Positions 4,695-7,132 of a DNA stretch of 13,678 nt are shown piece by piece. The notes beneath the pieces were generated by a model. That model saw nothing but the letters and a program-made list of their open reading frames with translations. It did not search any database and was not told the origin of the DNA. Origin of the DNA: Lysobacteraceae bacterium UBA6001 (GTDB taxonomy: Bacteria; Pseudomonadota; Gammaproteobacteria; Xanthomonadales; Xanthomonadaceae); contig DJAN01000303.1 of assembly GCA_002429615.1 (NCBI GenBank), positions 1 through 13,678 of the forward strand, read 5' to 3'. The first letter of the stretch is position 1; each line of letters starts with the position of its first letter. The position numbers and the translations under genes were made by a program.

Positions 4695-4701
4695 TGACAT
4701 G

Positions 4702-5265
4702 ATGCGACTGGTTCTGTTGGGACCGCCCGGTTCGGGCAAGGGCACCCAGGCGGCCCGACTGAAGGAAAAGCTGAGCATTCCGCATATTTCCACCGGCGAC
4801 CTGCTGCGCGCCGAAGTCGCCGCCGGCACCCCGCTGGGCCTGCAGGCCAAGGAAGTGATGGCCCGCGGTGACCTGGTCTCCGACGAAATCCTGCTCGGCA
4901 TGCTGGAATCGCGCCTGGGCCAGCCGGATGTCGCCAATGGCTTCATCCTGGACGGCTACCCGCGCAACCTGGCGCAGGCGGCGGCGCTGGACGGCCTGCT
5001 GACCAAGATCGGTCAGCCGCTGGACGCGGTGGTGCAGCTGGACGTGGCCACCGACCTGTTGGTGGAACGCATCGCCGGCCGCGCGAAGGCCGAAGGCCGC
5101 GAGGACGACAATCCGGAATCGGTGCGCAAGCGCCTGCAGGTCTACAACGACTCGACCGCCCCGGTCATCGGCTATTTCGCCGATCGCGGCACGCTGACCC
5201 GTGTCGACGGCGTCGGCAGCCTGGAAGAAGTCCTGGCCCGCATCACCACGGCCCTGGCCGGCTAA
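4702..5265 (+). CDS. adk: Adenylate kinase, short-LID form
   Basis: This cytoplasmic enzyme catalyses ATP + AMP to 2 ADP. The 187-residue product has the P-loop GPPGSGKGT (7-15), the AMP-binding STGDLLR (30-36), DGYPRN (84-89) and the LID-flanking GRAKAEGREDD (126-136). The LID is the short kind: no Cys-type zinc knuckle and about 25 residues fewer than E. coli Adk. That matches annotated xanthomonad enzymes. Two ATGs are adjacent (4699 and 4702); the second has the better SD spacing and gives the family-standard MRLVLLG start. It is divergent from pfp and is followed by a hairpin-rich region, so it is probably monocistronic. Both this gene and pfp affect the adenylate/PPi energy balance. Confidence 0.97.
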   Translation: MRLVLLGPPGSGKGTQAARLKEKLSIPHISTGDLLRAEVAAGTPLGLQAKEVMARGDLVSDEILLGMLESRLGQPDVANGFILDGYPRNLAQAAALDGLLTKIGQPLDAVVQLDVATDLLVERIAGRAKAEGREDDNPESVRKRLQVYNDSTAPVIGYFADRGTLTRVDGVGSLEEVLARITTALAG

Positions 5266-5330: not shown

Positions 5331-5409
5331 GATAGGCAAGGCAGGAGCTGGGACCCAAAGTTTGCTACGCAAACTTTGGGGGCAAAGCCCGCGCAGCGGG
5401 ATTTGCCGC
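5331..5409. repeat. Double-hairpin repeat, copy A
   Basis: This is the first of two adjacent, related units that both begin GATAGGCA. It contains a perfect 12-bp palindrome, CCCAAAGTTTGC (5354-5365) and GCAAACTTTGGG (5369-5380), around loop TAC. A second stem, GCAAAGCCCGC (5382-5392) and GCGGGATTTGC (5396-5406), has one G/A mismatch and loop GCA. Relative to copy B it carries a 5-bp AGGCA duplication near the start. Confidence 0.8.
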
Positions 5410-5484
5410 GATAGGCAGGAGCTGGGGCCCAATAGTTTGCGCAGCAAACTTTGGGGGTGAAACCCGCTCAGCGGGTTTCACCAC
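5410..5484. repeat. Double-hairpin repeat, copy B
   Basis: This second unit directly abuts copy A. CCCAATAGTTTGC (5428-5440) pairs with GCAAACTTTGGG (5444-5455), with one bulged T. GGTGAAACCCGC (5456-5467) and GCGGGTTTCACC (5471-5482) form a perfect 12-bp stem with loop TCA. The outer pairs of the second hairpin differ from copy A on both arms together (GCAAA/TTTGC versus GTGAAA/TTTCAC), so pairing is kept while the sequence changes. This suggests the folded form matters. Confidence 0.8.
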
Positions 5485-5669
5485 GAAAAAGCCCCGGCAC
5501 CGCAAAGTGGTACCGGGGTCTGATTTCAAATAAGCGCCAGCGGTCAGGCTTGCTCAGAGCCCCGCAACATGAGCTCCCTGGGGATTGGCCTCTTGGGGAG
5601 TAGGACCAGATGGGATGCTGCGGCTGGCGTTCAGTATTGTGACTAAGCGGCCTGGGCGCTGATATCAGG
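5485..5669 (-). ncRNA. Predicted structured small RNA (~185 nt), family unknown
   Basis: On the minus strand a promoter, a nested fold and an intrinsic terminator line up. From the outside in, paired segments (+ coordinates) are: 5664-5667/5521-5524 (TGAT/ATCA), 5655-5660/5533-5538 (AGCGCC/GGCGCT), 5650-5654/5545-5549 (CAGGC/GCCTG), 5643-5648/5552-5557 (GCTTAG/CTGAGC, one G-U), 5615-5623/5562-5570 (CCGCAGCAT/ATGTTGCGG, one G-U) and 5612-5614/5576-5578 (CCC/GGG). They form one rod with an asymmetric internal loop. The apical part is C-rich, with unpaired ACTCCCCAAG and ATCCCC that could contact G-rich ribosome binding sites; that role is inference. The ~147-nt rod is followed by the terminator hairpin. 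Its size recalls 6S RNA, but I see no 6S signature sequence, and the neighbours (adk, mpl) are not the usual 6S neighbours. No sizeable ORF fits the transcript. Confidence 0.6.
5486..5518 (-). terminator. Intrinsic terminator of the predicted small RNA
   Basis: Read on the minus strand, CCCCGGTACC (5518-5509) pairs with GGTGCCGGGG (5501-5492) around a 7-nt loop, with a single A/C mismatch. It is followed directly by CTTTTTCG, a classical stem plus U-tract. The U-tract exists only on the minus strand, so it cannot be the adk terminator. It implies a minus-strand transcript arising between here and mpl. Confidence 0.85.
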
Positions 5670-5675
5670 AAGTTC

Positions 5676-5704
5676 CTTACACCCCCACTGCCTTTCCCTG
5701 ACAG
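5676..5704 (-). promoter_or_regulatory. Sigma70-type promoter for the small RNA
   Basis: On the minus strand, CTGTCA (5704-5699) and TGTAAG (5681-5676) are 17 bp apart. Each matches 4 of 6 consensus bases of TTGACA and TATAAT. Transcription would start near 5669, just before the first paired segment of the predicted RNA. The spacing and position relative to the fold support the call more than the box quality does. Confidence 0.5.
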
Positions 5705-5758
5705 CTCCCTGACGGTGTCGGCATGCCGGGCCTGTTCCCGGCGACGCGGGCGATCGGA

Positions 5759-5764
5759 GACAAT
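5759..5764 (+). promoter_or_regulatory. Possible -10 box of mpl, 6 nt before ATG
   Basis: GACAAT ends 6 nt before the mpl ATG at 5771, which would put the transcript start at or next to the start codon. GGAGA at 5756-5760 overlaps the box and could instead act as an SD with 10-nt spacing, so a leaderless start is not certain. The leader also holds a GCCGGG/CCCGGC hairpin (5725-5742). Confidence 0.35.
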
Positions 5765-5770
5765 CGCCGG

Positions 5771-7132
5771 ATGAGCAAAATCCACATCCTCGGCATCGCC
5801 GGGACCTTCATGGGCGGCGTGGCCGCCTTGGCACGCGAGCTGGGGCATGTCGTCGAGGGCAGCGACCAGGCGATCTACCCGCCGATGTCCACCCAGCTGG
5901 AGCAGCTCGGCATCTCCCTGGCGCAGGGGTACGACCCGGCCAATATCGGCGCGGACTGCGACGAGATCGTCATCGGCAATGCGTTGTCGCGTGGCAATGC
6001 CGCGGTCGAGGCCGTGCTGGACCAGGGCCGCCGCTATACCTCCGGTGCTCAGTGGCTGGCCGAGCGCGTGCTGCCGGGCCGGCTGACCCTGGCCGTGGCC
6101 GGCACCCATGGCAAGACCACCACCACCACCATCCTGTCCTGGCTGCTGGAAGCGGCCGGCCGCCAGCCCGGCTTCCTGATCGGCGGCGTCGCGGAGGACT
6201 TTGGCGTGTCCGCGCGCGTCGGTGGCGGGCGCGAGTTCGTGGTGGAGGCCGACGAGTACGACACCGCCTTCTTCGACAAGCGCAGCAAGTTCGTGCACTA
6301 CCGGCCGACGGTGGCGATCCTCAACAACCTCGAATACGACCACGCGGACATCTTCCCTGACGTCGCCGCGATCCAGCGCCAGTTCCACCATCTGGTGCGC
6401 ACTGTGCCCGGCCAGGGTCGGCTGATCGTCAACGGCGAGGACGCGCGTCTGGCCGAGGTGCTGGCCATGGGCTGCTGGACGCCGGTCGAGCGTTTCGGTT
6501 TCGATCCGGCGCTGGAGTGGAGCGCGCGGCTGATCGAAGCCGACGGCAGCCGCTTCGCGGTCCTGCATCGCGGCGTGGAGATCGCCACGGTCGCCTGGCC
6601 GTTGCTGGGCCGCCACAATGTCCTCAACGGCCTGGCCGCGCTTGCCGCGGTGCATGCCGTCGGCATCGACCCGGCCAGCGTGGTCGATGCACTGGCGCGT
6701 TTCCGCAGCGTCAAGCGCCGTCTGGAGGTGCTGGGCGAACGCCAGGGCATCACCGTCTACGACGACTTCGCCCATCACCCCACCGCGATCGCGACCACGC
6801 TCGAAGGGCTGCGCGCCCGCGTCGGCGACGCGCGCATCGTGGTGGCGATGGAGCCGCGCAGCAATTCGATGCGCCTGGGCGCGCATGCCGAAGCCCTGGC
6901 CCCGTCACTGGATGCCGCCGACGCGGTGGTCTTCCTGCATCGCCCGGAACTGCGCTGGGATTCGACCCCGATCCTGGCGCGCGTGCGCGGGCACTCGCAG
7001 GTGGTGGCGGATGCCGAGGCATTGCAGCAGGCGCTCGCCGCGCTGGCCCGGCCCGGCGACCACGTGGTGTTCATGTCCAACGGCGGCTTCGATGGCGCGC
7101 CGCGGCGTTTCCTGCAGGCGCTGCCGGCCTGA
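5771..7132 (+). CDS. mpl: UDP-MurNAc:L-Ala-gamma-D-Glu-mDAP ligase (murein peptide ligase)
   Basis: This 453-residue cytoplasmic Mur-family ligase rejoins recycled murein tripeptide to UDP-MurNAc using ATP, bypassing MurC, MurD and MurE in peptidoglycan recycling. The N-terminal nucleotide-sugar-binding region starts KIHILGIAGTFMGG (3-16). The ATP loop is GTHGKTTT (111-118), followed by EADEYD (159-164), NNLEYDHAD (185-193), the domain-3 motif DDFAHHPTA (331-339) and EPRSNSMR (361-368). The C-terminal SNGGFDG (436-442) is the Mpl hallmark that separates it from MurC. Length is normal for the family. A longer in-frame start at 5723 exists, but the chosen ATG gives the conserved MSKIHILG terminus. 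Its TGA overlaps the next start codon by one base, so the LON-domain gene is probably co-translated. Confidence 0.96.
   Translation: MSKIHILGIAGTFMGGVAALARELGHVVEGSDQAIYPPMSTQLEQLGISLAQGYDPANIGADCDEIVIGNALSRGNAAVEAVLDQGRRYTSGAQWLAERVLPGRLTLAVAGTHGKTTTTTILSWLLEAAGRQPGFLIGGVAEDFGVSARVGGGREFVVEADEYDTAFFDKRSKFVHYRPTVAILNNLEYDHADIFPDVAAIQRQFHHLVRTVPGQGRLIVNGEDARLAEVLAMGCWTPVERFGFDPALEWSARLIEADGSRFAVLHRGVEIATVAWPLLGRHNVLNGLAALAAVHAVGIDPASVVDALARFRSVKRRLEVLGERQGITVYDDFAHHPTAIATTLEGLRARVGDARIVVAMEPRSNSMRLGAHAEALAPSLDAADAVVFLHRPELRWDSTPILARVRGHSQVVADAEALQQALAALARPGDHVVFMSNGGFDGAPRRFLQALPA

Follow-up and report, generated by a model that had tools for sequence, protein, structure and literature searches.

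The structured minus-strand RNA between adk and mpl in a Lysobacteraceae genome is the catalogued small RNA sX11, with a candidate operator, regulator and target

The structured RNA encoded on the minus strand of the adk-mpl spacer in the window (by which is meant the whole stretch of 13,678 nucleotides analysed) is sX11, a small RNA that is already catalogued, and is not new. The Rfam model RF02230 aligns over its full length (model positions 1-138 of 138) to window positions 5630-5483 of the minus strand, with 102.9 bits against a gathering threshold (GA) of 70 and an E-value of 6e-19. It is the sole Rfam match at the gathering threshold in the whole window. On the strength of this covariance model, the element is virtually certain to be the trans-encoded sX11 of Xanthomonas and Stenotrophomonas. 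The original prediction had called the RNA undescribed and had asked for an Rfam comparison, stating that a strong match would tell against novelty but not against the RNA. This is the outcome obtained; by its own criterion the word ‘undescribed’ fails on the full-length match, while the RNA itself is supported. Thus, the headline claim of novelty falls, as the RNA is already in the catalogue. The added value lies elsewhere, in a refutable hypothesis for the operator, the regulator and one target of sX11. That a palindromic operator, an FsnR-type regulator and an envelope-protein target belong to sX11 as one account has, in our estimate, an even chance of being correct.

The features are collected in Table 1. 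The RNA sits between adk and mpl on the opposite strand, as predicted, and overlaps neither gene. When set beside sX11 as described by RF02230, it shares the full-length model match, the helices, the C-rich P3 loop, the terminator and the locus, and it differs in nothing of kind. 6S RNA (RF00013) is of similar size; identity with it was rejected, as there was no Rfam 6S match at the gathering threshold in the window, and the prediction had seen no 6S signature. Downstream of adk, at 5350-5486, the window also carries two tandem 62-nt copies of a hairpin-rich repeat, 77% alike and with a spacing of 75, the second of which reaches the sX11 terminator.

Table 1. Features of the sX11 locus, in coordinates of the window
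Feature	Position	Strand	Basis and remarks
sX11 small RNA (RF02230), ~145 nt	5486..5630	-	Covariance model, promoter anatomy, terminator; 5' end near 5630 inferred
P1 closing helix	5535..5629 (5629-5623 with 5541-5535)	-	93.2% of cells paired; both-side changes in 4/7 pairs
P2 helix	5564..5621 (5621-5615 with 5570-5564)	-	87.3% paired; both-side changes in 4/7 pairs
P3 hairpin	5586..5608; loop 5601-5594 = ACUCCCCA	-	C-rich; proposed anti-Shine-Dalgarno seed
P5 hairpin	5546..5562; loop UGAGC 5556-5552	-	Both-side changes in 5/5 pairs
Intrinsic terminator	5486..5518; 10-bp stem 5518-5492, U5 5490-5486	-	Terminator scan
-10-like hexamer CACAAT	5636..5641	-	A2 93/96, A5 94/96, T6 93/96; 21 nt from palindrome
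19-bp palindrome TGTAAGGAACTTCCTGATA	5663..5681	-	Candidate response-regulator operator, centre ~-43; PWM score 27.0
Degenerate upstream half-site (TGTCAGGGAAA...)	5685..5703	-	Scores -11.9 in window
adk, flanking gene	4699..5265	+	Synteny
mpl, flanking gene	5771..7132	+	Alternative start 5723; synteny

The RNA folds as helices P1 to P5 plus the terminator, and the helices are backed by covariation, the check that had been asked for. In the alignment of relatives (A1; 57 of 95 sequences kept after a 96% similarity filter), the Rfam-type structure of 29 pairs has 89.8% of its cells paired and changes on both sides in 15 pairs, and 0 of 500 shuffles were as good. When the partners were slid by 1-3 columns as a control, pairing fell to 30-46%. 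In the 56 orthologues, the paired cells number 365/392 for P1, 338/388 for P2, 364/392 for P3, 132/168 for P4 and 253/280 for P5 (93, 87, 93, 79 and 90%). Because an exact pattern over the P3 block had served to fetch most loci, the invariance of this block is partly built in. The P5 loop UGAGC and the strand before P2, GCUCA (5574-5570), could possibly form a 5-bp pseudoknot, on which the relatives are uninformative because the pairs are invariant in 26 of 26 sequences; the alignment A3, taken without L030 and L019, holds 26 sequences. The terminator was also borne out: a scan of 5470-5780 found this one site of the kind, where shuffles gave 0.2 on average.

The original prediction had drawn a longer molecule of ~185 nt, starting at 5667 from a promoter CTGTCA/TGTAAG and closed into a rod by six paired segments. 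That the minus strand is structured agrees with its folding energy of -76 kcal/mol (z -2.25), a value matched by 2 of 200 shuffles. When the window sequence is folded to its energy minimum, long-range pairs of 5662-5643 with 5557-5537 do form, and with this 5' extension the fold reaches -76 kcal/mol, versus -70.7 with P1 enforced. However, among the rod pairs, the 17 that draw on the extension are paired in only 440 of 928 cells (47%) in the 56 orthologues. The conserved -10-like hexamer would, moreover, fall inside the proposed RNA, and the sigma-70 match for its promoter is absent. A rod RNA of this length is therefore rated as highly improbable, and sX11 as modelled in Rfam is the reading followed below.

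The promoter anatomy of the relatives points to a shorter transcript. Throughout 96 distinct loci, the window included, a CACAAT-like hexamer lies 21 nt downstream of the 19-bp palindrome. These were the distinct ones among 117 loci with the loop pattern, which 2 of 119 loci lacked. The palindrome pattern TGTMRGGRAWNWYCYKATA is matched at 17 or more of its 19 positions in 82 of the 96 loci, and at 16 or fewer in 14. The hexamer and its spacing from the palindrome suggest a 5' end near 5630, which is also where the Rfam model starts, and hence an RNA of about 145 nt. From the sequence, we infer that the palindrome is centred near -43 and that there is no -35 hexamer. A consensus scan found 0 sigma-70 promoters (0.1 in shuffles). 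The two predicted hexamers do exist, at 5704-5699 and 5681-5676 with a 17-nt spacer, but TGTAAG, taken for a -10, is in the relatives the left half of the operator-like palindrome, and CTGTCA, taken for a -35, overlaps the degenerate upstream half-site. The predicted 5' end and length thus find no support in the relatives. A tandem second operator at this half-site was considered and rejected, since its score in the window is -11.9 and, of 84 loci, 29 have a positive second box upstream of the palindrome and 22 have one at offset 22. sX11 is probably transcribed from a -35-less promoter, activated by a dimeric response regulator at the palindrome. A literature search for the palindrome motif returned nothing relevant.

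The window's own genome has one sX11 match. Across the family, 34 of 198 genomes, spread over 12 of 54 genera, match at E<=1e-3, 29 of them above the cut-off, with one match each. A scan of named genomes for the loop pattern gave 89 stretches; among the 80 listed, all come from Xanthomonas, Stenotrophomonas or [Pseudomonas] hibiscicola/boreopolis, with the exception of one contig. This contig (L035) was deposited as Bacillus subtilis SK7B5 and carries sX11 in the same mpl/adk context; it is probably a contamination. Of the 127 loci fetched, some of them redundant, 119 have sX11 flanked by both mpl and adk and antisense to the two. The remaining 8 show one of these genes, with the RNA no more than 300 nt from a locus end. 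The window's sX11 thus occupies the same locus as in its Xanthomonas and Stenotrophomonas relatives.

For the comparisons between genomes with and without sX11 (among them those of regulator orthologues, motif enrichment and the adk-mpl place), the sets were hand-picked from the 198-genome family scan. In 17 of 20 genomes without sX11 above the cut-off, adk adjoins mpl, and a search of this place with the model R1 found no sX11, only two chance-level matches of 13 bits. Similarly, no operator scoring 12 or more was present there. Elsewhere in the assembly, on a different contig, four of the 20 (G022, G035, G108 and G190) contain weak matches below the cut-off.

The palindrome is also found away from sX11. 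A search of five sX11-bearing genomes first saw it in two, between the gene of a GerE-domain response regulator and rpoN. With a position weight matrix (PWM) built from 33 distinct sX11 sites only, the best site in this spacer was then scored in all 16 loci with both genes, and each beat 300 of 300 shuffles. These loci include four genomes without sX11, and two of the sites are low (9.4 and 9.8). A seventeenth regulator locus, from G053, was left out, as the stretch fetched did not contain rpoN. Orthologues of the regulator occur in 17 of 22 genomes tested, that is, in 13/13 sX11-bearing genomes (G053, below the Rfam cut-off, being counted here) and in 4/9 without sX11. In the window's genus, a palindrome site stands just after flgA and 62-65 bp before flgM in 3/3 genomes (G000, G044 and G077; Pfam annotation for G000 and G077). 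Looser matches fall at two chemoreceptor-type genes, in one case directly before the start codon, and at many places without evident sense. The former (L140 and L181) are operator-like palindromes that deviate from the pattern at 1-2 positions; the genes downstream of them encode Cache or 4HB_MCP and HAMP domains.

A palindrome common to sX11, rpoN and flgM suggests one regulator, perhaps FsnR. When numbered from RVLIVDD, the regulator encoded next to rpoN has D53, R153, R157 and R158 as in FsnR, and E in place of Q154; the residues D53, R153, Q154, R157 and R158 of FsnR are given in PMC9600515. According to PMC5498567, FsnR (DP16_RS11195) binds at ten genes, including DP16_RS11200, DP16_RS11215 (fliE), DP16_RS11175 (printed flgD) and flgA. 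The gene order in G178 is FliD, FliS, a 96-aa protein, tPilZ, the response regulator, rpoN, a REC protein and FleQ. If locus tags step by 5, this order would make DP16_RS11200 rpoN and would put DP16_RS11175 on fliD. DP16_RS11200 as rpoN would fit FsnR acting at the rpoN palindrome. FsnR is the best candidate for the regulator at the sX11 palindrome, with the odds for and against it judged as level.

The odds on FsnR are lowered by the flagellar region of G178, where over 60 kb no site other than that of rpoN scores 10 or more. At fliD, where PMC9600515 gives EMSA and ChIP evidence of FsnR, the G178 promoter has no palindrome: its best score, -18.5, is matched by 283 of 300 shuffles. In G178, the regions taken for the upstream regions of fliC, fliE and flhB contain none beyond shuffles, fliE itself not being located. 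It is the flgA promoter that is reported as bound by FsnR, whereas the palindrome in the window's genus stands before flgM. No close FsnR orthologue (the best is 36%) turned up in the draft genome that holds the window, which is 90% complete; both same-genus genomes encode one. The dependence of sX11 on hrpG in X. euvesicatoria, reported in PMC4652430, is counted against the FsnR account as well. Either FsnR binds two kinds of site, or another protein acts at the palindrome. The latter alternative, in which sX11 is as catalogued and a non-FsnR regulator acts also at rpoN and flgM, draws on the lack of the site at the FsnR-bound fliD promoter and in the regions taken for those upstream of fliC, fliE and flhB, and on the orthologue missing from the window's draft, and the part of PMC9600515 at hand gives no FsnR consensus to compare. 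It has to explain, however, why the site adjoins an FsnR-type gene in every locus with both genes, and why FsnR is reported at what, by gene order, is rpoN. We consider it a serious rival, of somewhat below even probability. With FsnR as the regulator, this c-di-GMP-inhibited activator of flagellar genes would switch on sX11 through the palindrome.

On the target side, the prediction had noted a C-rich apical loop, which is present in P3, and had supposed that it binds G-rich ribosome-binding sites. There is precedent for such a mechanism in sX13 of Xanthomonas, whose C-rich loops act on G-rich motifs near the start of mRNAs to repress them (PMC3771888). Both are structured small RNAs with C-rich apical loops, and for sX13 the same source names the G-rich mRNA motifs. 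sX13 differs in having three C-rich stem-loops and in its polA locus, a distinction that rests on its description in this source and not on sequence.

The P3 loop is complementary to UGGGGAGU. This motif lies 1-10 nt before an ATG 9, 6, 6, 14 and 15 times in G000, G044, G178, G064 and G006, versus 2, 2, 4, 3 and 1 times for the reversed-pattern control in the same order. Two hits come from the strand opposite sX11, and 41 of the 50 were read, which for G000 and G178 means all except the sX11 locus. Most of those read have short or no reading frames, or do not recur. One gene has the motif in all five genomes, and it encodes a protein of ~110 aa whose N-terminus resembles a signal peptide and which the sources variously name as hypothetical protein, lipoprotein, phosphodiesterase or SmpA/OmlA-domain protein. 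No Pfam match above the cut-off and no PDB sequence match was obtained for it. In sX11, the C-rich loop at the apex of P3 is thus complementary to a G-rich stretch close to the start of a conserved mRNA.

The uninterrupted match between this leader and the loop region was compared over genomes with and without sX11. It is 10 nt long in nine of 14 sX11-bearing genomes, 9 nt in two, and 8, 7 and 6 nt in one each; in 12 genomes without sX11 it ranges from 0 to 7 nt. A match of at least 8 nt is hence found in 12/14 versus 0/12 (Fisher p 9.5e-6; G011, with a split match, and G053, with weak sX11 and a 7-nt match, being left out), a contrast partly confounded by discovery, as 5 of the 14 had served to find the target. 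Outside these five, the count is 7/9. As sX11 follows phylogeny, the contrast is support and not proof, and it lends the supposed binding of ribosome-binding sites some support at that level. G171 and G010 belong to the same genus, the former with and the latter without sX11, and have a 6-nt match in both.

The match could also be a by-product, since a C-rich loop would fit any strong G-rich ribosome-binding site, with the function of the loop lying in protein binding or in other targets. Over whole genomes, GGGGAGTA before ATG against its reversed control counts 73 versus 20 in 11 sX11-bearing genomes and 39 versus 11 in 11 without sX11, so that there is no extra enrichment with sX11. Phylogenetic confounding and discovery bias speak for the same explanation, as do other GGGGAGTAG sites, such as that of bactofilin, where a ribosome-binding site may adjoin a stop codon upstream. 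Against it stand the recurrence of the motif at a sole gene in all five genomes of the first scan, the extension of the target match to TGGGGAGTA(G), and the different ribosome-binding sites that most genomes without sX11 have at the target gene. A by-product is accordingly held to be possible, with about one chance in three. Pairing at the target is preferred. The P3 loop would pair with UGGGGAGUA(G) over the target Shine-Dalgarno sequence and block initiation, a step which, judged from the complementarity, we regard as rather probable. The gene for the SmpA/OmlA-like envelope protein of ~110 aa is the best candidate target, a choice that may equally well prove right or wrong.

Other candidates were set aside. 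Bactofilin was among them, on account of the possible stop-codon origin of its GGGGAGTAG. Bactofilin-like genes with a GGGGAGTAG ribosome-binding site (L291-L296, L306 and L307) show a 9-nt match to the loop region, and such genes occur in at least 8 of the 11 sX11-bearing genomes scanned, with Pfam run on L306 only. A protein beginning MKRNQNGMTLL... was seen only in the window's genus, and only G178 and G071 showed the gene of a PF00437 (T2SSE) ATPase, which matches over 11 nt. Separately, three genomes (L202, L203 and L227) share conservation around CATGGGGAGTGTGCCCATGCTCCGGCG where no reading frame is clear, which might mark another RNA or a leader. In G006 and G064, a short GGGAATGGGGAGTCGGGAATGGGG-like motif is repeated at several places (L205, L215, L222, L224 and L228).

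Literature searches for sX11, and for FsnR with small RNA, gave no paper that links sX11 to FsnR or to an SmpA/OmlA-like target; the proposed operator and target appear in no paper found. A conserved small RNA without a reported target in these searches thus gains a mapped operator, a candidate regulator and a conserved candidate target. The wider proposal is that low c-di-GMP would free FsnR, which would turn on rpoN, the flagellar genes and sX11. The sX11 loop would then turn off translation of the SmpA/OmlA-like protein, along with lineage-specific targets such as the T2SSE-family ATPase gene. That sX11 is in this manner the RNA arm of a c-di-GMP/FsnR flagellar switch in xanthomonads is a tentative and rather unlikely proposition. 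If it is true, the motility switch would be coupled to the cell envelope through sX11.
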